DNA of 48,026 nt from Diatrype stigma (taxonomy: Eukaryota; Ascomycota; Sordariomycetes; Xylariales; Diatrypaceae): contig JAKJXP020000175.1 of assembly GCA_022225965.2 (NCBI GenBank), forward strand, positions 1 through 48,026, in the 5' to 3' direction. This document shows positions 17,246 through 47,030 of the stretch, piece by piece. Numbering within the stretch: the first letter of the stretch is position 1; each line of letters opens with the position of its first letter. The translations under genes were made by a program, and so were the position numbers. The notes beneath the pieces are model-generated. The model saw only the letters and a program-made list of their open reading frames with translations. It did not search any database and had not been told where the DNA came from.

Positions 17246-17326
17246 TTATTCCTCCAAAGGTAGAGTGACCGACCGCTCCCGCGAATCCATGACCATCAAA
17301 TCATCATCATCATCATCATTGTCGCC

Positions 17327-17370
<44 letters not shown>

Positions 17371-19444
17371 TGCCGTTGCCGTTGCCGTTGCCGTTTCCGT
17401 TGCCGTCTTCCTGCGCATCTCGCCCATCATCATCCAAAATTACAACTTCGATATCGTCGTTTTGATCGCCGTCTACTTGGAACCCATCTTCCTTCAGGAG
17501 CCAGCGATGGATGTGCTCATAGATGACCTTTACCGAGGTCGGGGGAAATGCATTTCCAATCTGCTTCCGTATACCACTGCCCGTAAACTCGTGATGGGAG
17601 GGGAATCCTTGAAGTGCGGCAAACTCTCGTAGAGTAAAACCACGTTCCCCGGAAGGGTGATAATCTCCACTATTACCGGTCGTAATAGTGTAACGGAGGA
17701 GGGTATGGGGGTCGTACGGGGGCTTAGGGAAAGCCGGATTTCTAAGGGCCCTGGCTAGGACCTCGTCGACATCGTTAAGCGTAGCCCTACTTTTGATCGT
17801 AGACAGGGCATCTTCGATTGTAAAGAGCTCGAATAGTGGCTCTGGGAACGGTGGTAGTCTTTCGCCCGGACAAGATGCAATCATGATGAGTCGTTTGCGA
17901 TTCTGAGTACTGCCGATTTCCGATAGGTTCATAACTTTGTAGGCAACAGAGTAACCCGTCATAGTGAAGCAGTGGAGAAACTGGTTGAAGAATAACTCGA
18001 ATCTTTTATGTAAAATCCCGAAGGTCTGTTCTACGGTAACGATCCGTGGCCGGAACTTGAGCAAGACTTCTAAGCAGGCGTAAAGCGCGGCTAGGTTGGC
18101 CTCATCATTCTTCCCGGGATTGGTATGTGCTGGGCTCCAGACTTGACAAGGTGGCGATATATGTAGGATATCTACCGGCACTGGGGAGTGAGTTGTCGCG
18201 AATTCATGGACGCTCATCTCGTAAAGATCGGTATAGGGGAAGTTCAATCGGTACGATGCGCAGGCGTTCGGATCCATGTCGCATGCCATAGTAGTTCTGA
18301 AGCCCGCTGCTTTTGCGCCAGATGTGACGCCGCCTTGATCAGGATCTCGAGTCAGTATCTTCAGTTCTCTAGTTCTGAAAACTTGAAGTCGCTTACCTGC
18401 CCCGCAGAACATATCTGCATGTGTATATCTTTGGCCGCGCTGGCGATGCTTAGCTGGGTTTATATCCTTGGTAAGATCGATGATCGGGGACTCTGGACAA
18501 TACGACCCCCCTCTGACTTTCCCAATACGCCATTTCTGGATCAGTTCGTCATCGGGGACTTGGAGATCAGGGTTCGTTATCTCGTGTGCCCTGAGCCTGA
18601 CGAAGAGTCGATTATGAAGCCGTCCCTCCTTTTCGGCGGCAGCGGATTTGTAGAAAGAGACCATTTTCCACCGGCATGTGAGTACAGCGAGTTCTTCGGC
18701 CTCTTCGGGACTCTTGAATTCCTTGATATCATACCTGTGGGTAGGATAAAGAGCATTGGTAAACTGGAGCTGCCTGATCTGCATGACTTCCTTGATGTTG
18801 ACCTCAATCGCTGCCTGAGTGGTCCATTCCCGAAGATCGTCCTCATGTATATTCAAGACGGCGACAACCTCATTCCTTTTAGGGGGGAGTTGGCCTCGGG
18901 TTTTTCGAGCCCTAGCATATGGTATACCGCGTATGATTATATCGTCACCTTCCTTCCGGATCAGTTGGATTTCCAAAAACTCAATGCCAAGGGTGTTCTG
19001 ATGTTTAGGCATTGGGTTTATTTCGACGACAACACCTTCCTGGACCAGCATTGCATTATGGCGACAGCTTGGAAGACGTAGGTGGTCTTCCACTGGCTTG
19101 TTCCGCGATGTATCACCCAAGTCAGGGAGAGCATCCCACTCATAGTCGAGGATATCTATAACCTCAGCAATCTCCTGTTCTAAGTCGTCTTCCACGGCAG
19201 CTTCTAGCTTGAGTTTATTGTCTTCCTCATCTTCGTCTTTGTCTTCAGCATCATCAATAATGATTGGGCTGTGGTCATCATCGTCAAGTACGATGGCATT
19301 CTGTTGACTATGGCCAGTCTGCCAAAAATGTGTTAGCATCCGTCGATAATCTGGACCAAACTCCACTCCATCATCATCATTGTCATCGTCGATAACGATG
19401 ATGTCAGGTGTATTATGCCGTCCGTTCATCTTCAAGGACTTCAT
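17246..19444 (-). CDS. rid: RID/Masc1-type DNA cytosine-5 methyltransferase (711 aa)
   Basis: Start is the ATG at 19444; the frame is open further upstream only from a TTG, through non-coding tandem repeats. One in-frame 63-nt intron (18334-18396, donor gtaagc, acceptor aag) splits motif I; removing it gives DMFCGAGGVTSGAKAAGF at about residue 344. Other motifs: catalytic SPPCQVWSPAHT with PPCQ at 410-413; TVEQTFG (EQT at 451, where most C5 methyltransferases have ENV); GSTQNRKRLIMIA; and the terminal RKQIGNAFPP near 605-614. The EQT variant and the WSPAHT context are those of the RID/Masc1 group, needed for RIP in Neurospora and for MIP in Ascobolus (established knowledge). Residues 130-310 form a BAH-like N-terminal region, preceded by very acidic stretches. 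The C-terminus is an unusual Gly-Asn/Gly-Asp hexanucleotide-encoded tail. All key catalytic residues are present, so the gene looks functional. Confidence 0.92.
17321..17407 (+). repeat. Hexanucleotide repeat gccgtc/gccgtt in the methyltransferase gene
   Basis: About 14 hexamers run in the coding region of the minus-strand gene: gccgtc units (Gly-Asp on the minus strand), then gccgtt units (Gly-Asn). They encode a (GN)n(GD)n tail just before an Asp run near the C-terminus. The unit is a multiple of three, so length changes keep the frame. Confidence 0.9.
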
Positions 19445-19582
19445 AATGAGGTTTCCCCGAGGTATAGTGGTAGTAGTGAAGAAGGGGATAAGTATGATGA
19501 TAAAGTCATTAAAAGCGTTAGGTCCGACCAGATCAAGTATGCATATGAAAAGTCGTTGATGGTGCCGAGTCAATCGTGAGAA

Positions 19583-19758
19583 CTCGGCGAGATGGAAGTG
19601 CGATGCTGGCAAGTCAATAGCGGCAAGTCGGCGAGATGGAAGTACGATGCTGATAAGTCAATAGTGGCAAGTCGGCGAATCGAAAGTATGATGATGTTAA
19701 GTCAATCATGCCAAGTCGGCGAGATCAAGATGTGATGATGGTCAGTCGTTGGCGGGAT
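19583..19758 (+). repeat. 44-bp tandem repeat, about four copies
   Basis: The motif (g/c)tcggcga(g/a) recurs at 19583, 19627, 19671 and 19715, exactly 44 bases apart, followed in each copy by related gatg and aagtcaat segments. Forty-four is not a multiple of three and copies are degenerate, so this is non-coding sequence in the promoter or leader of the minus-strand DNA methyltransferase gene. Confidence 0.85.
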
Positions 19759-27166: not shown

Positions 27167-28334
27167 TTTGAATACAACTAAATATTAATCGGTGATATAA
27201 TGATTGTGGGGTGGTCAAGGGCGTAATAATGAGCGAGTGATCAACCACGGGGGTTCAATGAAAGGACGCAAACGAATGTTCGCAACGGCGGGCAATAGGG
27301 CCGTGTCTTGTCGGTTGGACAGGTTGGTGATGAGGGTGGAAAGACAAGAAGAGGAAAGGAAAGATGTGAGTTCCTGTAAATAAAAGGCATGCTCCGGCGG
27401 TTCGACCTAGCCCATACCAGCCGGTCATCGTTAGGCACCAGCCGTTATCCCCAGAGGAGGCATCGGTACAACTAGATTAGGGGCATGCTCGGAATGCTCT
27501 GAATGCAAGGTACGCTTTCCAAGCTCATTTCCCATAGATAATCTTGAGGTACATAATCCCATGCGCTTGAGACCTTCGTCCGTCGCGCCGGCGAGAGAAA
27601 GGGGGGCCGGTCAACGCCAGGAAACGAGCGATTGGTTATTCCCACCCACATCTTGCATTCAGCAAACCTCCACGGACGAATAAGATGGCCTCAGTTCAGG
27701 AACAGGAATAGTTCCAATGCGGACATCGGGTAAGTTAACCATGCCTAGACACCTACGCGTGCTACGGCACAGTGGGCTCCTCATCTTTTAGGCAGTCTGA
27801 CAGTCTGGATGGCATTAGACCTGAATATAGATGTCAAGCTATTATCTCATAGGCCATTGGTCGTCATGGAGTATCAACAATCCCTGCTGCCCTGCGCATC
27901 TAGCCAGATCCAAGACCCACAAGGCCGGCCTTGCACGCCTTGTCGATGTCAGTGCCAGGTTCGGGGAAAGAGCTCGGGCGCTGCGGGACTTTAATCAGTA
28001 GAGCTTGTTTGATGGAGAAAATACATATGAACAGGAAATGATCATCGTCCGAGTATGACAAGATCGGGATGACAGTACCGACTGCTTGGATCGTGTTTCA
28101 TCGCTATAGCGCAACGTCCTGTCTGGAGTCTGGACTGTCAAAATCCTCTGTCCTCTGCAAACGCTCACACATCTTCAACATTATGCAGTTCGATACAAGG
28201 CCACATCCTAAACAATTGCAGACCATAAATTGGACATAAGCGTAGATGATTAGCCCCTTTTTCAGCTTCGGCTAGAGGTATAAGCTGGCATTAAGCGCCA
28301 GGCGTTTATCGTGGTCGTTATAATAGTAATACCT
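27167..28334. other. Promoter of the chitinase gene and left flank of an AT-rich block
   Basis: No supported gene. The sequence is normal in composition until about 28250, where AT content and TpA start to rise before the Mutator-like element proper. The small ORF at 27809-27994 has no coding support. Confidence 0.5.
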
Positions 28335-28343
28335 AATGCTATA

Positions 28344-28464
28344 CGTTACGGCTATTCTAACGGTTTCTTAGGCTATTCTGACGGTTTTTAACCATATCCG
28401 GAAAAACGCTTTATACCGATCCATTATATACATTTAAATGGCGATACCGTAATACGCGTTTAGG
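28344..28464 (+). repeat. Left terminal inverted repeat of the MULE
   Basis: Starts CGTTACGGCTATTC and contains an internal direct repeat of ggctattct(a/g)acggt. It is more AT-shifted than the right copy: for example taacgg here where the right copy reads tgacgg. Confidence 0.85.
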
Positions 28465-29279
28465 ATAATATGGCGTAAAATACCGCTAATTATTTTTGTT
28501 TCGATTATTAAAGCTCAAAATCGAAGGTTGGCGATATTATTTAACGTTTAAAAGTACCTTTTGTAATGGATTTTATTAAACAGCTTATATAACGTAATTG
28601 GTCTTTTTATTAGGAAATATATAATGCTTTTATTATTACTGGCATTATCATAAGCTTTATCGCCCGAAAATAATGCAGCAAATGGGCCGACCGAATATAT
28701 GGCGAATACCGACGATATATTTATGTATATAATAAAAGCGATATTAATGCTTAAAAATATACGAAAGCCGCCGGAAATAAAGGTTAACGAAAGACCTTAA
28801 CGAAAAAATTTAATTACGGATAAAACGGAAAATTAATAAAATCTAGTAATAATAATTAATAAAAATTCGATTTTTTATATAATAAGGATAAAATATTTAA
28901 AAATTTATATAATCATTTTTTCGAAATTTATAACGCTATTTATTTCGTTATTAATCGACGCCATTAAAGAAATAATTCCAAAGTAATAATTAAAATCGAA
29001 GCTGCCGTTTAAAATTAAAAACTGTTCCATTATAATATTTTCGATTAAATAAAATCGAAATATTTCGAAATTAATTTTATTATTTCCGATATTAAAAATA
29101 TTCTTATAAAAACGTAACGTATTTAATACGGCAATCGAATAGTTATCTAATAGTTTTTCGAAACCTTCGAATCGAATTTCAAAATTTGGTATGTCGTATA
29201 TCGTAAAAATAATGATTTAAATAAAAGAATATAACGTATTTATTAGGCATATAAGTAATATATGGAATTATAAAAGGAA

Positions 29280-29900
29280 AATTCCGAACTTATTTCGATC
29301 GATAATACGTATAAGGTTAATAAATTTAATATGCCGCTTTATTAGATTTTAGGAATTATTCCCTTTTATATTACCTTTTCGATATCGTATTACTTGTTTA
29401 GCGGTAAGAAAGAAATATTGTTTTAATGGATTTTCGATACGTTAAAAAAATGCGCCCGTAAATACGGCGGACGGGCTATTAATAAAATAGATATCGATAT
29501 TTTCGGATAATGCTTTAAATTTAACGTAATTATTTCCGATTTCGATAAAGTTTTTAAACGCGCCGTCCGAACGGCTTTTTTCGATACCGTTAAGTATTAA
29601 TTTTATATATGGCATATTTTTAAAAACGTCGTTTATAATATTAAGAAAAAATAAAACGGCTTTTTCGAAAGGATTGTATTCGGTAAACGCGGCAGCGATA
29701 TAAGCAGTACTGATCCCGAAAAGAAAAATAAGGGAAATAATAAAAATAATTGCGATGCCAATAAGGACTGCTTTTTCGAAGGCGACATTTTCCTTAATAA
29801 AATATAACGCCTTTTCGTATTGGAATATCCGGACGAAAATATATACGATATATATATTAAAGCGTTAGTTACGAAGCTTTTTTAGCCCGGAAATAAAGCG
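29280..29900 (+). pseudogene. Broken MULE transposase catalytic region
   Basis: Reading one plus-strand frame through stop codons from about 29290 gives recognisable MULE transposase signatures: IDNTYKVNKFNMPL, then ILGI, a YYLFSGKKE block, and about 60 residues later WHIFKNV. These correspond to the first catalytic Asp region, the SGE/KxE block and the W-H-x-x-x-N-V block of the MULE transposase domain. Many codons are stops consistent with CpA-to-TpA changes (CAA/CAG to TAA/TAG, TGG to TAG/TAA). No intact ORF remains. Confidence 0.7.
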
Positions 29901-31079
29901 GTTCCTAATAGGAATTAAGTATTTACTTAATTAAATCCTCGCCATTACGGATTCGTTTCGTCCGGTTTTTTACGTAAATAGGCAGATAATGCCGACGGAA
30001 TAATGCTTATATAGCGAGTTTATATATATTCTTGAATTAAAATTAAATGAAATCAATATTAAGAACAATTCTAATAGGAATTTTCTTATTAATTATTTAT
30101 CGTGAATTATTTTTGGAATACTTATTTGTAATATAAGCTTAAATTTATAAAGTTCGCTATTAAGGATTATCGAAATTTCGGCTTACGGGTAACTTTATAA
30201 TCAAAAAGATTTTACGTTATATTAAAGCGGCATTTTAAGAATCGATTGGTTTTATTGTATTAATTTTATTATGCCGTTCATATGGCTTGGACGAAAATTC
30301 GAAGCAAATACGAAAGCCGACTTATAAAAAAAAAACGAAAAGATTAACGAATTAAAGAATGCCATTTTTTTTAATAACATTTATTATAACGTTAGTTTTT
30401 TCGCTTTTTGCAAAATGCTTTGGCAATATATTAAAGCGGTTAAAATAATTAAAAAAAACGTACCGCTTTTTGTTTACAAATGCGGTTTTTCCGGCCAATT
30501 TAAATTACCTTATTGGTATATAATTTATTTATTTTTGGTATAAAAATAATTATTTTCGATAAATCATTTTCATTTGCATTAATAGCTTCGAAAATTCGAT
30601 ATAATTATGACGTCGATTATTTTTTTTATTTAATTCTGATTAATAGAATAATTTTAAGCTATACGAATTATTGCTAACTTCGTTATTTCTTTTTATAGCC
30701 AATGTTTTCCAAAAAACGCATTCGCCGTAACGAATAAGACCCGAAAATCCTTTTTATATGCCGTCGCAATAAGAATGGTTCAGGTTTTTTAAAGCCGAAG
30801 CCGCCGAAGCCGCTAAAGCCGCTAAAACCGCCGGATACCTAAGCAAAAGAAATACAAGCAAAAGGGCAAAATAAAGCAATTGTAATACCTGCTACATAAT
30901 CGGCGCGGCTTTCGGCGTAACGGAGGGATTTATTTTATAATAAAAGCACGCGTCGTATTTCATTTTATAATAAAATGCCGCGAATATAATTTATAGCTAT
31001 TTAATCGTTACCGTAAATAATACCGTAACCGCCGGTTATTCTTTATACGGTAAATAAATTAAATGCTATAATATAAATA

Positions 31080-32749: not shown

Positions 32750-33773
32750 CTAGGCAGTATCCAACACAACAACTTCGGCTTCGGCCTCGCCAACGCTCTC
32801 AACGGATAACTTGTCCCCAGCATTGAGACCGTCAACGAAAGCGCCATCCCCTTCATTCAAGATGTCCTCCCTACCGTCCAACCGAATTTTGGCCTTTCCT
32901 CCTTTCGTCGAAGGGAGGTGAATGTATACCTTTCTCTTGGTAGCTTCCGTTGCGTTCGCGCCGACATTCCATTCGAACCGTGCCTGAGGCGCAATGATCC
33001 CGGCACCCATGACAAAGTCGGCGTGGATGGGGATCGTGCCCGGGATCGTGGGCTCCGCCGCCTTCTCTTGCTCGAAGGAAGCCTCCGGGCCAGCCTTGAG
33101 AGGGCTCAGGATGGGCACGAAGCCCTGCCTTTTCTCTTCCTCATCGAAGTGTTTCGTGTGGTACCTCGGCGTAAGGCCCCTCTTCCAAGGGATGGCCCAT
33201 ATCTGGAGGAAATGCACCGTGTCCTTGTGGTGCTCGTTCTGCTCCGAGTGTGCAATCCCTGTACCACCCGTCGTGAACTGGACGTCGCCCCGGTGCATCC
33301 GATAGAACTTGTCCGACTGTTTCCCTTCCGCACCCTTGCGGAGCATGCTGTCACGGTGAGTCAACTCGCCAGACAGTACGTCTGCTATTTGTCAGCCACC
33401 ACCTCGCGTACACACTTCGACTGTCAGGTCAAGCAAGAACTGCACTCACTATATCCATGTTAGCACTTATACATTGCAAAAGCGTCAGGGCGGGTAACAT
33501 CATCATCATCATCATCATCACAACTCACCAGCTGAATATCTCGAAATCCCTATGCGGATGAGTTGGGAAGCCAGAGTTTGCCTTCACCCGGTCCTCGTTC
33601 AGCACGCGCAGCGACCCAAAGTGGCTCAACTTAGGGTCGTACCAATCTGCGAAGGAAAAGCTGTGATATGTGTCTAGCCAGCCATGATCCGCATGTCCTC
33701 GAGCTGCGCTCCGGTGAGGTGTAATCTTAGCATGTGACAGTGCTTTCGACATGGCGTTCTTGATGGTGTTCAT
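32750..33773 (-). CDS. Pirin-family protein (291 aa) with a twin intron
   Basis: Exons (minus) 33773-33530 and 33381-32750 give 291 aa, the usual size for fungal pirins. Diagnostic blocks: LDTYHSFSFADWYD; LNEDRVKANSGFPTHPHRDF with His72 and His74; SGELTHRDSM; and GDVQFTTGGTGIAHSEQNEH with His126 and Glu128. These are the cupin metal ligands of the family (nuclear cofactor or quercetinase-like activity in characterised members). The C-terminal pirin domain follows (VYIHLPSTKGG). The exon junction falls inside a Tyr codon (T|AC) and rebuilds FEIFSYVLSGEL, the family consensus. It does so only if the 148 bases between are removed as two nested introns (see next entry). A single GT-AG intron gives an immediate TGA. 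There is no signal peptide; a cytosolic or nuclear location is expected. Confidence 0.9.
33382..33529 (-). other. Spliceosomal twin intron ([D1,2] stwintron) in the pirin gene
   Basis: On the minus strand exon 1 ends AGCT, followed by G|gtgagt. An 80-nt internal intron (33528-33449) has donor gtgagt, branch gctaac and acceptor atatag. Its removal joins G33529 to tgagtg (33448 onward), recreating GTGAGT, the donor of a 68-nt external intron. That one ends with branch gctgac and acceptor tagcag at 33382. Both are normal fungal intron sizes with strong signals. Only this two-step removal keeps the frame. Removing the internal intron alone leads to TGA after eight further codons, and joining 33529 directly to 33381 makes TGA at once. 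The internal intron also holds a gat trinucleotide run. Confidence 0.82.
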
Positions 33774-34473
33774 AGGCTTCCCTTTCTCCTTTGGTGGCTA
33801 TTAGACAAATCCTGGCTTCAAAGGTAATAGATTGGCCCTTTTAAATGTCGACTCTGTTGTCCTTCTCGAAGTTGCGAACGCCCCTTCCCACGCCTTGAGG
33901 ACGATCAGAACCCGATTAAGATGTTTCGTAATAACAGCTCGAGGATTGCAAATACATGATCCAGCATGCTCTTGCGCTGTAGACGGCCGTGTCCACAAAT
34001 TCCATGGCTGTTCACCGTTTGACCCTATCATCGCTCGTCCCCGAGGGTTTGCTTCAATGCGTAGCGCATTGCAATGTGTTTTAGGCGCTGACAGGCGATT
34101 AGCTCATGCTGACTTAGAGATCACCCACCCCACAAATACCCAGGTACCTAGGTACCTACCAGCTTACACACCTGCTTACTTGAAGGATAAGAGCAGCATT
34201 GTGGGTTCATGGCATCATCTGCCTTAGCTAACAATATCAAATTGACAAGTAATCATGATAGAACATATTCGTTTCCATAACTTATAACTTGGGAACTTGG
34301 CCAGGACCATAATATGTGTTTGTCACCCCAGTGCTAATGTAGTTCTTACATGCATTGGCTGGCATGACCAGTCAACAGTGTCTTCCAGGCGTGAACTATG
34401 TATGGTAACACCACAGTAGCCCATATCTCATAGTTGCTCAAAGGAGCACTCTACAAAAAAAAGATCAGGGCAA
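33774..34473. other. Promoter of the pirin gene and left flank of the Fot1/pogo element
   Basis: No supported gene. It includes ccaggtacctaggtacctacc near 34139-34159, a palindromic form of a motif scattered through intergenic DNA here. Confidence 0.5.
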
Positions 34474-34516: not shown

Positions 34517-35217
34517 ACACTATACAGCAAAAGTCCTATATTACAGCAAGGGGTTAACCCATAGATAAAAAATCGTAAAATTAAGGGGCTTTAAGCGTTA
34601 TATAAAGCTTTATAAGCGGTTTTAATTAATGTAATTATCGGTATCGTATAAACCGAATTACCGCCCGTTTCATACGTATAGCAATAGATTTAATAAGGCC
34701 GTATTTTTCTTTCTTTTTCTTTTCTTTTTTACTTTTCATAATTATAATAATCTTTTTTTTATATTCTTATTTTCGAAATTCTTATTTAAGGGCGGTAATT
34801 TATTGGTTCGTTATTTTTAAGGTTTTATATCTTTTTTATTTTCGCTGCGTATTATTTTTAACGTTCGTTATGCATAATTCGCTTAGCCATTACTTCCTTT
34901 ATGTTAATCATTCGTTCGTTCGGATCTTGGGCCATTTTTCTTATTTTTCTTGGCTTTAAGCGGTTAAATTTAACGTTAAGGCAAATAATTTTACGATCTT
35001 TAAGAGCAATTTCGAGGTTCTTATCGTTTAAGGCCTTATTTATAAAGCATATAGCTATTCGGGCATTAAGGATATTAATTATAAGCCTTTTATATAACGC
35101 CGTAACGTTATAACTATTATTAATGTCTTTTATATCGTAATTTTTATTATATAATAATAACTTAATAACGTTTTAAACTTTCGTATTTTTAATTATATAA
35201 AAATTATTAAAAACCTT

Positions 35218-35457
35218 TTAACGGTTTAAGAAATATAAGCCAGCGGTACGAAATCCGGACTTAATATTTAATGCTATAAGGCTATTCTTTTTTGTTTTAA
35301 CGTAGCAGCGAAGGAATTTAAACTTTCCAATAGGGGCTAAATCGTTTAATTCGGCCAGGTTCTTAAGATACTTTTTATACGTAACTTTTAAAACGTATAT
35401 ATAAATTAAATCCAAAAGCTGGAAAATATGACTTATATGGGCCGGAAAAAACAACAT
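35218..35457 (-). pseudogene. C-terminal DDE-domain fragment of a Fot1/pogo transposase
   Basis: A 79-residue open stretch on the minus strand reads PAHISHIFQLLDLIYIYVLK, then KFKFLRCYVKTKK and NIKSGFRTAGLY. This matches the end of the DDE_1 transposase domain: the PxHTSHLLQPLDV block before the last catalytic acid region, then the NI-x-x-GFR-x-x-G element. Substitutions such as Leu or Ile for conserved Pro and Val are consistent with C-to-T damage. The start codon shown by the frame is not a real start. It belongs to the element bounded by 34476-38604. Confidence 0.75.
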
Positions 35458-35736
35458 ATATATTCGATTTATAAAACACGTTTATAGGAATTTATCCGAA
35501 ACGTAGCTTTCGTATTTATTAATAATAAGAAAACGAACGTTATTAGGATCTTTCGGTTAAATTTGAAATAAAAAGACCTTTTTTAATTATTTTATAACAA
35601 TATCGTTATTAATTCATTTATTTTCGGACTTAACGAAATATTAATTAAGCTAATTAAATTCCCTTTTAAACCATTATGCCTATATCGTTTTTGCTTTAAA
35701 TATTAATAAGAAAGAAATCGCTTTTCTTAAGACCGA

Positions 35737-35949
35737 TATTACGGTAATAACCTAAAGAATAAATAAGATGATTAATACCTTAGTTATCTTTAGAATAATA
35801 AGCATTTATTTCCTATTGTTCCCATTTGTATATAAGCAGCTGGCCTTTCGCTAGTTTCCTTCCCTTTTCTTTTTTTCTGTAACTTATTATTATACGTTAA
35901 TTCCTAATAATTAGCAAAATGCGCCTTTTTTTAAATCAGTGCTATTATA
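35737..35949 (+). repeat. Left LTR (213 bp)
   Basis: Aligns without gaps of note to 37412-37624; differences are mainly C/T and G/A. Contains caataacctaaagaataaataaga-type AT-rich U3 sequence and a polypyrimidine tract near 35850-35880. Confidence 0.85.
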
Positions 35950-36279
35950 TAATAATAAGTTCCTTTGCCTGTTTTTTAAAGGAACAGCCGTTATATTTTA
36001 CGATACCTGTTGAAAATGGGCAATTAATACAGCAGTTCGATTCTTTTTCGATTATTCGATAAATTAATAACATAGCAAAACCCTTATCTCTATATAGCAA
36101 TTTTCCGTTTCCGTTTTTTCCGAAAAATTTTCACGAACTTCACGTTTTCGGGCTTTATGCCATACTTTTACGTTTCCGACTTTCCCGTTTCCGAAAAATT
36201 GCAAAGCTTTTGCTTTATTCGAATTGATAATGGCTTTATTTATTAGTGCCTAAGAAGCCTAAGCAATTATTTAGGCCGC

Positions 36280-37390
36280 TGTTACATATTTCCGCGACGA
36301 ACTGACCGCCTAATTCGCCATTGAAATTCATAAGCTTTAAGTAAAAAATAAAGCTTTAACCATTTAAATCGAAGCCTTCCAAACCAAATAAAACCTTCGC
36401 TTAAAGCTTTCCGATATAATGAAATTAAAAGGTCCCGGTACTTACGACGTTTGGCTTTTAGAAATTAAAGGCAAGTTTTGCGTTAATAGGGCTGCAATCG
36501 GCGATAATTACGTCCGTATGTATTACATTTATAACCGGCTGGAGCTTAAAATTAAAGACCTCGTTATTTTCTAAATTTATTATTCCGAACGTACCGATAA
36601 TTAAAATGACGCTTCCTAGCGTATTCTGGATGCCTTCGATCGCATTTACGACGATCCGAATAAGTCCTTTTATAATAAAGCCCGCCTTAAGAAAATAAAG
36701 ATAAAAAATAACGATTCCTTCCGTTAATTCCTTAACAATTAGAAACGCGCGTTATACGCGGCTCGAAACGATTTGGATGAAATAACCGAAAGCCAACGTA
36801 TTCGAAAGCTTCGTTACGTTTTTTCGGATAAACTCCAAATCAAAATCAATAACTTCGAAACCTTTCCAATTACGTATACCTTTTTCGTTAAGAAGTTTCA
36901 TAAATAATCCTACGACAAAGGTAACGGCGTTATTTATATTAACTATTACAATTTTTTCCATTAATTAATGAATATATCGTTCGGAATTATAAATACCGCT
37001 GCTGCCGTTATTCCGGAATCCAACCTTGCAAAGCTTTTAGGTATCGTTAATTTTTTATTCGTCGTTCTTTTGTTTAGTCCTGTTTAACGAAATAAGTAAT
37101 AACGTATTAACCGCTGCCGTTGCTGTGGTTTTATTAAGCATTTTATCCGTAATTGTAACAAATAACCTGCTTCCGGCCTTATTCGTATTATTGTAATTAA
37201 CCGTTTAAATGTCGAGGATTTCGATTCGGAAATAAAGGAACCCCAATACGGTAAAAAAGAATACTTGCCTTAATACATTAGCAGTGCTTTAAACGACCTG
37301 GTCCGAATAAATGGAATAAATAAAAGCTACCGGATTATAATGAATTACTTTTATTTAAAATAAAGGTAATTATAAAGCTTTAAGACGAAG
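36280..37390 (+). pseudogene. RIP-damaged gag with CCHC zinc knuckle
   Basis: A single plus-strand frame, interrupted by stops, keeps long readable pieces: KGPGTYDVWLLEIKGKF near 36430; RILDAFDRIYDDPNKSFYNK near 36620; and ITESQRIRKLRY near 36780. A retroviral-type zinc knuckle, CRCCGFIKHFIRNC (C-x2-C-x4-H-x4-C), lies at 37115-37156 with all four ligands intact. The order, a capsid-like helical region then a knuckle, is that of gag polyproteins of fungal LTR elements. Stops are mostly TAA or TAG at positions that CAA, CAG or TGG would explain. Some surviving stretches exceed 40 codons, so the damage is moderate. Confidence 0.75.
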
Positions 37391-37411
37391 CTTTTTCCGA
37401 AAGGAAAGTGA

Positions 37412-37624
37412 TGTTACGGTAATAACTTAAAGAATAAATAAGATAATTAATACCTTAGTTATTTTTAAAACAATAGGCATTTATTTCTTATTATTCCCAT
37501 TTATATATAAGCAATTGGCCCTTTGCTAGCTTTTTTTTCTTTCCTTTTTTTTTATAACTTATTATTATACGTTAATTTCTAGTAATTAGCAGAATGCGCC
37601 TTTCTTTAAGCCAGTGCCATTATA
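37412..37624 (+). repeat. Right LTR (213 bp)
   Basis: Partner of 35737-35949; begins TGTTACGGTAATAAC and retains gccagtgcc, where the left copy reads atcagtgct. Confidence 0.85.
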
Positions 37625-38563
37625 GCCAATATATATTTAACGAAAATCGTTTAAGCCCGGAAAAAATTACATTTAACGTTTGCCCTTTTCGTATCCGAAT
37701 TACTTATAATAAGCCCGTTAATTTCGAAACCTTTTATTATATTATTTTCGTTAGCATTTCATTAGTTTTCGGGTTTAATTCAAAGGAAATAAATTAGCCT
37801 ATCGAAAAAAGCGTGAATATTTTCGGGATTTGCAGCGTTAATATGCTTATAATCCAAACGGCGGCTTATTTTTGTTTTTATAACAGGATTTCGCTTAATA
37901 AAGCCTATTATTCATTCTTTTTTAAATGGCTAATGGTTTCCCTTTAATTATAATAACCTGGTAATAACAAATCGGATTTACTTATAGCTAAAGGCGTAAC
38001 TTAAAAATTCTTAATGCAACATTTATTGCATTATCTTATTTTCGTAAGCCTTAAAAAGTTTTTATTAGCTTTTATTTCGATTATTAACCGTAGAATTATC
38101 TAATATACGGTTTCGTAGCGTTAAACGAGAAATTCCGTATCATTAAATCGCTTAACGGTATTTCATATCGCTTAAGATCGCCTCGATGGCATCTTATATA
38201 TTTCTTTTATTATAATTACCCGTTATAATGCCGTATTTATATCGTATAAGGCTCGTTTAAATAAATATATTATAATAAGCACCATAAAAAAATTCCGGGA
38301 ATTTTACGATTTTTTTTATTAATTTAAAGGAATTACTATTTTGCGTAGTTTTCTTATTACTTAATTTCTAACGTTTAAGCGCTTAAATTTACCCATATTT
38401 TTTAATACCTAATTATAAGCCAGAAAAAAATCGCAAAATTACGCCATTTGGAAACCTTATTATATAAAAGAATTAAATTCTATTAATTAAAAAACGGCCT
38501 TAATTAACGCAATATAAGCCATATTACGTATAAGTGAATAAGTGGCCTTTTAATATAGAAAGC
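37625..38563 (-). pseudogene. N-terminal part of the Fot1/pogo transposase
   Basis: The minus strand to the right of the nested LTR element carries a broken continuation of the transposase. The clearest piece is NPENIHAFFDRL at about 37790-37840, matching the segment between the CENP-B-type DNA-binding region and the first catalytic Asp in Fot1/pogo proteins. Upstream codons are too damaged to read the helix-turn-helix region confidently. Confidence 0.5.
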
Positions 38564-38604
38564 GGTCGGAGAGTAGGGGTGGTCGGTGACCCCATAATTG
38601 ACGT
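38564..38604 (-). repeat. Right terminal inverted repeat of the Fot1/pogo element
   Basis: 41 bases ending AATTGACGT, followed by TA. Confidence 0.9.
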
Positions 38605-38606
38605 TA

Positions 38607-40483
38607 TATAAGTACTTAAGTACCTAATTGAAATTGATTAAAGGTCTGTTGAAATATGTCGCTTATTAATCTTCTTGTCTTGTAGTGATAAGCTCTCGTT
38701 ATATGTTACTCGGGTAACGGGTTCTCTGCTACATCAGTATTCCAGTGCTAATATTGCTTGATGTGAATACAGGAAGGAAAATGGGGGCAGTTACCTACAT
38801 AGGTAGTCCCTGCCCTATATGAGTCGACGGTCAACAACAGCCAGTGGTTTGTTTCTTCACAACTACCTAATCACTTGTGACGTCATAATGTCATTTTCAG
38901 CACCCAAGTACCTACACTCAAGTCTACGTAGTAGTCACACAACAAGAACAACCCGCTACTTATTTCATGACGGTTATTAATATCCCTTGGCAATCACTGA
39001 TTGCCATATAATGCTGGCCCTCGGTCGGATAGCTGTGCCAAAGTCGAATGCAACCGGAAGTTGAGGTCTTCCTACTGTATGTTACTTAGGTAAGTAGGTA
39101 AGTAGTTAGTTACCAGCCTATCAGGTCTTACTCTCTGCTATGGCACGTGATCACATCTGGGTAGCGGGAAAATATTCATACCTCCACTAAGGCTCTAACC
39201 AATGAAAAACTAAGAAGCACTTTCAGAGTCCCACTTAGTGTTCCATTTAAAAGAGCATCCAGCAATATTTTTTTACCTGCATCAATCTCATGTTCTTGCC
39301 ATTCCAAGTCTTTCTTACGAAAGCTTCCAGTGTGGCCCCGTCCAAGTCAAACCATGTTACGACAATTGCAATGCTAAGGTATGTCGATTTCACTGTTACT
39401 TTTGAGGAAAGGAATGTGCTCTGTAGGTAGTTACGTTGCTGTGTTGCTTTGGTGTGGCCTCTACAGATGCTTCATAGTTCTAGCAAGTTTGCCTGATGAA
39501 GTGTTATCTTCTGTGCCAACACTGCCTTGCCCATTGCACACAAAGCTTCTTGCACTACAAACTCTTCCTCCCCTGTACGCATTACTATGATGATTTTCTA
39601 TTTTTAAAATGTTCGACTGCCTAGAATTATGCTGCGGAGATATATACTCTGAATCAATGCGCTTTATCCATTATCCATACTCATCCGATCTAGGAGGTGG
39701 CAGGTTACTGACTTTCTGCAGGCAGAGTTTCCGTATATCTAGTGCTTGGTCGAGTGCCTAGATGGTCAAGGTCATTGCTGGATGATATCATGTATACGCA
39801 TGACCTTGCACATGATCTAAGTATCTAGCATTACCTGAGCCAACGCGCTCCTGGTAATGTTGGCAGGTTACCTACATATAGATGATATGCAAGTGTGGTC
39901 TTGGCTATTGCGGGTGGTAGAGCTCTTGCAGGATAGGTAGGTATGTTGCATTTGAAAGGCAAAGGGGAGCACAACAACACCGAAGGCCTTACTCAGTACA
40001 CATATAGGTATCGTGGATAGTATCTTTGTGTACTAAAGAAAACAATATTGAATGCAATAGCAATGCTCCTCTGATCAGTTTGAAAGGATCAAAAGTCAAC
40101 TAGTGTAACCTCTGTTAGAGGTTAGCTGCAATCTGCTAATAAGTTCCTCATGATGTGCATGAGAGCTATAGAGAAAGAGTAGCCAAACAAAGACCGGAAG
40201 AGCCAGGTCAAGGTGGTAGAGAAGACTGCATGGTGTATACATGGATGGATGCATCCGATGCGAATATGTGAAGCAGTGAGATGCCTTATGTACATACCTC
40301 GGCATCCTACCTAGGTAGCTCTTTCTGTTAATTCCTGCTTCCAGTCAACTTTACAGTTTGGGAGGGAAGGTACGACGTGTAGTGGTAACACTAACGTCAG
40401 TTATGGTTTCCAGGGGCGGGGGGGGGGGGGGGGGGGGGGGGGGGCGGGGAAGACACTGGGGGGCGGACGACCGGACAAAACTA
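38607..40483. other. Intergenic region
   Basis: No supported gene in about 1.9 kb. The frame 39381-39590 begins with ATG and is hydrophobic but has no recognisable features. Several taggtaagtaggt- and cctaggtagc-type motifs occur. The poly-G run lies at its right end. Confidence 0.5.
40418..40444 (+). repeat. 27-base poly-G run
   Basis: Uninterrupted G homopolymer, flanked by ggggc and cgggg, 40-65 bases beyond the stop codon of the minus-strand CorA-like gene. In that transcript it would be a C27 tract in the 3' UTR. Length may vary or be misassembled. Confidence 0.9.
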
Positions 40484-43849: not shown

Positions 43850-46800
43850 TAATATATTATGTATCGATCGTCTTAATATATATAATATACCTAATTAACG
43901 TAAGCACCAAACAAGTTAAATAAGGGATTTTAAATTTATTAATTAATATAATAACAATTAAAAAACAGGGCTTATTTAATTATTATTGGATTAATTAAAC
44001 AAAAAAACGTATTAAACAGGTACATACCGGGCCGTATAATAACCCTAAGCCGCCGAAAGATTCGTATTAATCCTTAATCCCTTAATTAACTTCCATAACT
44101 TCTTTGCATCGTTTTTAAGCCAATGCTTTAAGTATTAAATAATTTTAAGCATCGAGATTTTAATATTATTGCGTTACGAAATTATCGTAAACTTGCATTA
44201 GCTAAATACCCTTTTATATTCGGCTAATATAAGAAAAACCGAAAAAACGTCGAATGCAAAGCGGCTAAACTTAAAGAAATCCTCCTAGTACTTCCTTTAT
44301 TATTTAAGCACATTCTTATCCATAAAAATAAAGCCCGTTTTTCTTATCGTAAAATAACGTTAAAGCTTATCCTTATCTTTATCCGTAAATTCGGACGCAA
44401 TATTATCGAATAAAGCTTTAATACGAAAAAGCTTCTTTTTTCCTTTCCGAAAAAGAAATAAAAACACGGGAAAAACCGTAATTTCATTCGCTACCGAAAA
44501 GGCAGATTCCTCCGAATCGGCGTTCGAACCGGCAGTTATACCCAAATCCGCATAATGCTATAACCAATATTTTATAACCCTTTCCTTAATACTTTCAGTT
44601 AAGTCGGCATTTAAAGCCCGGATTTCTTTTAAGCGCTTACTTAAATAAAAAATAACAAAAACCTAATATATAATAACCTTATTTAATACTTTCCGATACT
44701 TTTAAAGCTTCTTATAAGCACGTTTAAAGCCGGCCCGAATTTCGTTATAATTGTTTTTTCCTAAAACCTCGGGGTCCGCCCGATTAAAATAAGCATTTAC
44801 CTTTTTTCTTTTACGAATATTCAAACGGAACATAACTTTAAGGCCGCGTTTAATAAGGATTCGCTTACGTTTTAAAATACGTTAAATGGACGTTTAAAAA
44901 AATTAAGATATGCTGTATTAAAAGGAAACAACAAATTAAAAAAAATCGAATAAATCGTTTTTGCAAATATCGAATTAATAAAAGAAAATTTATAACGGCT
45001 TAAAAAAAAGGCATATATTATTTTCATTTTTTTCTAACAATTTAAACCTATTTAGCTACAGCCGAAAATTTATTTTTAATTCGTATAACGAAGGCATTAT
45101 TATATTAATACTAACGCGATTCCTTTCGTACCATAACGTTATTTCCTCGAAAAACCAAAGGATCCCTTATACCGCTTCGAAAAAATGTCATTCCTCGGGG
45201 ATAATTTCGTACTTCCAAATTATTCGGGCTTTACGATTAGCTATTCGCGTCTGGAAATAATAAAACCGATTAATAAGTTCCTTAAAATTTAAGGAATTAC
45301 GCATTTCATATAATACTCTGTTTTATTTTGTATCGTTATATATTTTAAAAAAACAGCCGGTTTCATTTTTAACATCGGAATCGTAAATGGGAATATTTAA
45401 AATAAGATTATCGGAAAATTCGGCTTTATTATTTTCATCTTTCAGGAATTCATTTACGGTTTCTTCCGTAATTCCACAATTAATAATTTCCTTTTTAGCT
45501 TTAAATGCTCGTACCTTTCGTTAAAAGGCATTACGACGTAATACGCTTTATTGTATAAAGTTATTTACTTTATAAGCTTTGTTAACGGAACTAATTACAA
45601 TAACCTTCGTTTTATTCTTCGTTTCGAAAACGAAAAAAGTAATTACGATATTAATAATATGCCCCCAGCAGTAAAAGCGCTACGTAGCTATCATTTATTT
45701 TGCCTATTATTTAAAAAAAAAATTAGCGATAAAAGGAATAAAAATGCTTCGAACATAAGGCGAAGGGCTTTATCGTTAACTAGGAATATTTTTATTAATA
45801 ATTATTCCATATAATTTAAATAAAAAACTTACCTTTTACATTATTTAAAATAAAAAACCCTAGCTTATAATTAATGTTATATAAATCCAATACATTTTAA
45901 AGATAAAATAACATATTCTTTGCTATATGGCTATTCGCCATTTGCCGTAATGCAATAAGCCGCGTATAAAGCTTTCATCGTTTATTTATAAAATAAGCAA
46001 CAATCCTTAAAATCCCTTTTTTACTAAAGGACTTTTATATATTAAACGAAAAATGAATCTTCGAAAGGGCATCGTCGCGAAGTTGCTATATAATCGCGAT
46101 ACGGACGGATTCGAATAATTTCTTCAGCCAGGCAGAAATAATATAATATAAATCCCAAAAAATTTCTTTTACTAATATACAATTAAAAAAGCCCAGCAAT
46201 TCCTAAAATTAACCTCGAACGCAAGTTACCGGAAATATATTATAAACCGTAATTAATTCGATAAGCCGTTATTTATAATTATTTATCATAAAACGTACGA
46301 ATCGCCGCCAAATATAATCCCTTAGCTATTAATAAATCGAAGAAATAAACGTATTAAGCAAAGGACTATTATTAAACGAACTATTTGAAACCTTTATTAT
46401 ATTAAAAAAAACACCGAAATGGAAATAATTAAGGTAATATCTCGAATCATTTATAAAAACACCTTTATATAACCTAATAAAGTCCTTTTAATTACAGCAA
46501 AAATAATATTAATATTTATTACTTTTCGCAAAATCCTTTATGCCATCGTCGTTTTTAATGGCCTTTATGAAAATAATATATTCGCCATGCTCGAAAATCT
46601 TAAAATAAATGCTCGATTTTATTTACGAATAAGCAATAAACTTCTTATCGCAAATCTTTATTCGAAAAAGCAGCTTTAAGCTGGCATTAAGCTTTATAAA
46701 AACAGCCTTTTCGAGAAATTACTGGCAAAAAAAAATTCGAAAGGCCTTAAAAAAGGCGGCGCCCTGTTATAACTATAAAAATGAATTAAATATCGTAAAA

Positions 46801-47030
46801 AAATTAAGTTAATTTAATAAAATATAATAAAAATAAAGATACTTCGAAATAACAAACTGCCAAAAAAAACTTCGTTTTTTTATATAAAACTTTATAATAT
46901 CGGTGTCATAACATAAAAACCGAAAATCGAAAACGCCGAATTGGCTCGAACAGGCTTAAACGTATTAAGCCAGGGCTCGAAATACCGGAAAATCCCACGA
47001 TTCTTCTCTTATAAGTAACACGAATAGGTA
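43850..47030 (-). mobile_element. RIP-mutated transposon block with hAT transposase relics
   Basis: About 3.2 kb of AT-rich, CpA-poor, stop-filled DNA. Minus-strand frames between about 45.9 and 46.7 kb keep hAT transposase pieces: SKIHFSFNIWKSF near 46027-46080, followed by ILRIVAYFIND; and EHGEYIIFIKAIKN near 46560. The S/A-K-I-H-x-S-F-D-x-W-T-S block is one of the most characteristic of hAT transposases. Element ends and target duplication were not found. A readable minus-strand frame at 44360-44545, with a Glu/Ser stretch, does not fit the hAT catalytic domain and may belong to a second element or to the C-terminal region. Confidence 0.6.

Follow-up and report, generated by a model that had tools for sequence, protein, structure and literature searches.

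How a pirin gene can encode a continuous protein when a 148-nt insert closes its reading frame is the question raised by a locus of the fungus Diatrype stigma. The window, i.e. the whole stretch of DNA that was analysed, is 48,026 nt long and lies in an assembly of 49 Mb in 224 contigs. On its reverse strand a reading frame opens at 33773, extends as far as the first base (T) of codon 82, where it meets GGTGAGTTG, and reopens at 33381, where it is preceded by GCTGACAAATAGCAG. We hold with great confidence that the insert is a real [D1,2] spliceosomal twin intron (stwintron), and the evidence for this reading is set out below together with the alternatives.

AT-rich stretches with 26-35% GC per kb are found in the window at 28001-31000, 35001-39000 and 44001-47000, flanking the pirin gene on both sides, and the remainder of the window is mostly at ~ 50% GC or higher. 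Those around the pirin gene look like islands of repeat-induced mutation. An open frame of 788 aa at 17246-19612 on the reverse strand matches the C-5 cytosine DNA methylase family (PF00145) over two stretches. At gathering scores, no Rfam match was obtained anywhere in the window.

The pirin protein and the exon join

Exon 1 (33530..33773, reverse strand) holds codons 1-81 and the T of codon 82, its residues 1-81 being homologous to fungal pirins, and terminates in TTC AGC T at 33530. Exon 2 (32750..33381, reverse strand) opens with AC GTA at 33381, where it takes up codon 82 at its second base, and extends to the stop. Translation after complete removal of 33382-33529 gives a protein of 291 aa. 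This joined protein matches the Pfam Pirin family (PF02678) over residues 27-143, spanning the join (1.2e-25; 90.1 bits vs a cut-off of 26.1), and aligns with the solved YhhW with no gap at the join. The gene product is hence a predicted pirin, i.e. a YhhW-type cupin.

The join was examined in an alignment of 53 sequences, namely this pirin and 52 homologues chosen from the 120 listed (the best 120 of 3924). F80, S81 and Y82 are present in all 53 sequences and no inserted column separates S81 from Y82; furthermore, EI[F/L]SY stands at the join in all of the 120 best homologues out of 3924. Given the absence of a gap between Ser81 and Tyr82 and the invariance of these residues, the join is fixed by homology, whatever rule is applied to the splice sites. 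The preliminary description of the locus had proposed that the final T/AC join (slashes mark joins) gives the pirin consensus FSYVLSGEL, and the 52 aligned homologues bear this out, S81 and Y82 being invariant in every one.

Among the top 30 homologue rows 24 carry a named organism, with identities of 83-87%, and the named sources include Annulohypoxylon, Hypoxylon, Daldinia, Nemania and Biscogniauxia. Twenty-two of these 24 are presumably fungi of Xylariales or Xylariomycetidae, the two outside that placement being Cladorrhinum samala and Cercophora scortea; this places the genome analysed within Xylariales or close to it. An N-terminal leader of 39-72 aa is present in 24 of the 52 aligned homologues. 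In this gene an in-frame TAG is found at 33798-33800 (reverse strand), nine codons upstream of the pirin ATG, so that the leader is here either absent or on a separate exon.

Organisation of the twin intron

The insert (33382..33529, reverse strand) is a 148-nt [D1,2] stwintron of phase 1 by its sequence and, in a relative, by a protein-level sign at the equivalent codon, and it splits Tyr82 as T/AC. At 33529-33523 the sequence reads GGTGAGT, i.e. a single G followed by a complete internal donor. The G at 33529 would open the external intron as the first base of its split donor, and the relative has Trp (TGG) at the equivalent codon. The internal intron (33449..33528, reverse strand) is 80 nt long, runs from GTGAGT to TAG with a (TGA)n tract close to its 5' end, and ends in the acceptor region ATATAG. 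Its branch point is predicted from a motif match, GCTAAC at 33459..33464 (reverse strand), 7 nt before the TAG. The remainder of the external intron (33382..33448, reverse strand; 67 nt, TGAGTG to CAG) starts with TGAGTG at 33448 and, together with G 33529, makes a 68-nt intron. Once the internal intron is gone, G 33529 and TGAGTG form the donor GTGAGTG, with a GCTGAC of its own downstream (33391..33396, reverse strand; likewise predicted from a motif match), 6 nt before the CAG acceptor, whose last base is 33382. The coordinates, motifs and intron lengths (80 and 68 nt) first reported for the locus proved exact to the base. The RNA fold of the stwintron is nothing unusual (z 0.44), as 128 of 200 shuffles fold as well or better.

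Based on this organisation, splicing would proceed in two steps. The spliceosome would first excise the 80-nt internal intron (33528-33449), whereby G 33529 would meet TGAGT and make the donor GTGAGT of the 68-nt external intron; the latter would then be excised at the CAG ending at 33382, and the exons would fuse as T/AC with Tyr82 restored. We infer the two reactions and their order from the sequence. G 33529 must be excised but has no conventional donor at its position; prior removal of the internal intron would create GTGAGT.

The partial products differ sharply from the 291-aa protein. With nothing removed the translation ends at 82 aa, one Trp codon after exon 1 being followed by a stop. 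Removal of the direct GT-AG span alone (33382-33528) gives an immediate stop and 81 aa, while removal of the internal intron alone (33449-33528) leads through eight codons to TGA and 89 aa; both outcomes agree with those first described, i.e. TGA at once for the direct long intron and TGA eight codons later for the inner one. Halting after one reaction or using the outermost sites would then yield a non-productive mRNA with a stop at the join or within nine codons of it. Conventional GT-AG gene models cannot represent introns of this kind, and pirin left unspliced or half-spliced would end at codon 81-89.

Match to the published motif and chance expectation

A formula published for the detection of [D1,2] stwintrons (PMC9024468, section 2.1), hereafter model A, was applied to the window and gave one match, exactly at 33382-33529. 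In 200 dinucleotide-shuffled windows the mean was 0.175 model A matches each. With the first 7 and last 15 bases of the insert kept fixed, the full motif arose 22 times out of 13,565 when the interior came from elsewhere in the window, and 407 times out of 20,000 when the insert's own interior was shuffled.

The relative's proteins and the question of a base error

Protein catalogues were searched with exon 1 alone in order to catch unspliced reads of the gene. In such reads the residue following Ser81 is diagnostic, being Cys if the DNA reads T/GT and Trp if it reads T/GG. The best homologue, P0001, is a protein of 291 aa on a contig of 1311 nt; it reads FSYVLSGEL and is identical to this pirin at 253 of 291 residues (87%). 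From the length of its contig P0001 would be a spliced transcript, an uninterrupted genomic allele being also possible. Three further proteins, P0122 (on three contigs, the longest of 9072 nt), P0204 (8164 nt) and P0205 (10266 nt), carry 81 residues identical to those of P0001, followed by W and the end of the protein (HPHRDFEIFSW), where a stop codon presumably follows. The leaders of P0204 and P0205 differ, hence these are not one sequence listed twice. Since Trp is coded by TGG only, the DNA of the relative reads T/GG at codon 82. At the protein level, this implies that codon 82 of the relative also has a leading GG, as a shared [D1,2] stwintron would predict. More generally, the residue that follows the last codon of an exon in an unspliced protein entry (W pointing to GG, C to GT) offers a cheap screen for stwintron positions from protein catalogues alone.

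In another protein gathered, P0130, the frame shifts just before the Ser of the equivalent junction (EIFKLYPLGRAYPP), probably through a base error or a frameshift in its contig.

These proteins bear on the foremost alternative, in which one extra G at 33528-33529, introduced by assembly or sequencing error, would disguise an ordinary 147-nt phase-1 intron. With one G fewer, T/GTGAGT...CAG/AC would indeed be a conventional intron that keeps the frame. However, three protein records of the relative, two of them with leaders that differ, also have Trp and not Cys at this codon. An extra G would moreover leave the donor remainder, as well as the branch point and acceptor of the internal intron, to chance, with the frequencies (22/13,565; 407/20,000) given above. 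The GG sign in the relative thus argues strongly against a base error, which we regard as very improbable.

Splice alternatives

All solutions with one or two introns between two anchors were enumerated; donors could be GT or GC, acceptors had to be AG, and the minimum intron length was 42 nt. Fifty-five conventional solutions keep the frame open and not one of the 55 yields FSYVLSGEL. Only two of them use a single intron and neither has a GT donor, so that the claim that no single GT-AG intron keeps the frame holds. Among the arrangements found, only the [D1,2] stwintron brings back the invariant FSYVLSGEL through canonical splice sites.

Two ordinary introns flanking a short in-frame micro-exon would be a conventional substitute, and frame-keeping options of this kind exist, such as GTGAGT at 33528..33449 combined with a GT or GC donor inside the remainder. 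Every such option, however, alters or lengthens FSYVLSGEL, whereas none of the 52 aligned homologues has an insertion at the join, and the options that keep both flanks need donors like GCAGTT or GTTCTT; a micro-exon is accordingly most improbable. We attach just as little credence to a removal of 33529-33382 in one step as a non-canonical GG-AG intron. It would produce an identical mRNA and the relative's Trp would fit it too, but the donor remainder, and the branch point and acceptor of the internal intron, would be left without a role. To our knowledge, GG-AG introns are extremely rare. Moreover, RNA reads of the two-step intermediate are reported for published Xylariales [D1,2] stwintrons (PMC12403724, PMC9024468). 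That the gene is a pseudogene with an insert that cannot be spliced, as the frame closed in the unspliced state might suggest, is hardly credible given 291 open codons across both exons, 87% identity to the best homologue, intact conserved residues and the same sign at the codon in a second lineage.

Returning to the [D1,2] stwintron, two variants of its splicing were considered and rejected. A TAG acceptor three bases upstream of the CAG is in frame but, as read from the sequence, FSSDVL would replace the invariant FSYVL; this TAG sits merely 3 nt past the external branch-point motif. An [A2,3] stwintron needs a G right after the last acceptor, and is rejected because base 33381 is an A. Conservation, for its part, supports the view that the stwintron would be functional.

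Distribution and age of the position

The searches with exon 1 gave 79 proteins and the best 120 of 208. Proteins with HxH..EIFS followed by W or by Y...GEL were kept, 53 in all; those dropped were mostly of bacterial type, together with fungal ones showing a frame or sequence change near the join (e.g. P0125, P0130 and P0203). Fifty of the 53 kept short reads, which are of fungal type, go straight through with Y, and the three with W all come from the one relative (P0122, P0204, P0205). Cys, the sign of an ordinary intron, occurs in none of the 53, though the W/Y filter could not have retained it; EIFSC is likewise found in none of the 314 proteins gathered. Of the read-through proteins 45 of 50 stop before the AHSE motif, many right after TTGG, which suggests that these 45 would be unspliced genomic reads with an intron farther downstream.

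Among the best 120 of 3924 full-length homologues, 31 have unannotated sources only and contigs > 5 kb, with a single frame through the join; the count was made by hand from the homologue table and the joins were verified separately. Gene callers of such catalogues usually ignore introns. If they did so here, the pirin gene is uninterrupted in the sources of those 31 homologues. A viral contig collection scanned for orthologous DNA contained no relative of the locus.

The stwintron position thus seems to be occupied in a small lineage only, with many relatives uninterrupted. With 50 of 53 reads uninterrupted at the join and the sign of an ordinary intron in none of the 53, occupation of the position looks new, and this narrow distribution points to a probable recent gain in a gene that seems uninterrupted in many relatives. 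We further propose, tentatively and with slightly less than half of our credence, that the pair was gained ready-made in one step in an intron-less pirin gene, before the split between this species and the relative, and that it was not assembled by insertion of a second intron into the donor of a pre-existing ordinary one. If true, this would define an intermediate age class between young sister stwintrons and old family-wide ones. With the position apparently filled in two related species but empty in many others, the gene is a usable test of twin intron origin.

Other candidates in the same genome

The genome was scanned with patterns representing the first half of a [D1,2] stwintron, using three internal donors. 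GTGAGT, the internal donor of pirin, gave 3 places vs 1 in the reversed control and 2 with a permuted motif, hence it is hardly enriched; GTAAGT gave 4 vs 3 in the reversed control and GTATGT 14 vs 3. Enrichment is clear for GTATGT alone, the three donors together giving 21 places vs 7 in the reversed control. Model A applied to the 21 loci gave 14 matches in nine of them, the pirin locus included; the others are L010, L015 (two matches), L017, L018, L021, L023 (three matches, two of them overlapping), L024 and L025. In the genome, 127 copies of the 10-nt 5' terminal element known from the literature were counted, vs 90 in the reversed control.

L023 is a glutaminyl-tRNA synthetase (GlnRS) locus (G000:C78, ~ 175433-175506, reverse strand), with a putative stwintron at positions 2623-2780 whose join, GNP/QMWDLAAYRVL, is continuous with the solved GlnRS in alignments, and a second candidate near the 5' end of the gene at positions 1501-1649. 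L024 (G000:C111, ~ 92780) is a 2OG-Fe(II) oxygenase gene in which 120 nt separate two insertions that resemble stwintrons (1501-1706 and 1827-1998); with both removed, the peptide matches PF03171 across both joins, weakly, at 28.3 bits (cut-off 23). In L010 the Pfam match begins past the join, and no Pfam match was obtained for the joined peptides of L025, of the second match in L015 and of the first in L023. L010, L015 and L025 are further candidates.

Comparison with known stwintrons

The preliminary description held that stwintrons occur in a small number of ascomycete genes, which is out of date, since hundreds to thousands are reported for Xylariales (PMC9024468, PMC12403724). Indeed, Hypoxylon sp. 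CO27-5 is credited with 117 [D1,2] stwintrons and Hypoxylaceae with > 1500, an underlying symmetry being reported for all 117 stwintrons of one species (PMC9024468), and 14 Xylariales with 288 sequence-similar ones (PMC12403724). In the latter report RNA reads from six species covered the joined exons; most cases also had reads of the intermediate, and distal mis-splicing that leaves one G was seen occasionally. The main text of PMC9024468 names neither pirin nor cupin, and no literature joining stwintron or twin intron with pirin, or stwintron with cupin, was found in a search that did not cover supplementary gene tables. Pirin is, as far as the literature was searched, a new gene for a well-described kind of intron. 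Of the earlier suggestion of a functional and possibly new case, function is supported through conservation and the novelty of the gene stands, while the kind itself was already well described.

As described for unique stwintrons of Hypoxylaceae (PMC9024468), the pirin stwintron starts with GG, has an external donor that the internal intron splits after its first nt, and carries canonical motifs. It also fits model A, its phase 1 is their commonest, and its 148 nt fall inside their 114-313 nt. Unlike them, it occupies a position read through in many relatives, whereas 68 of the 81 published ones are at positions common to all or most species of the family (PMC9024468). In its [D1,2] type and in a position empty in many relatives it rather resembles the propagating sister stwintrons of Xylariales (PMC12403724; PMC8469720), from which it differs by an external branch point merely 6 nt from the acceptor. 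A search for similar copies elsewhere in the genome returned only the stwintron itself at E up to 10. The complementary near-terminal 10-nt elements are absent from it, the longest end-to-end complementary run being 4 nt (6-7 with G-U), the same as in shuffles, and no inverted repeat of at least 8 nt was found in it. Membership of a propagating sister group was rejected on the lack of a similar genome copy, of terminal complementarity and of an unusual fold.

The pirin stwintron finally resembles that of Aspergillus nidulans AN7524 (PMC5639578), in which the internal intron also splits a GUGAGU external donor in phase 1. The two differ in gene and in fungal class; the intermediate of AN7524 was shown experimentally, that of pirin being predicted from the sequence.
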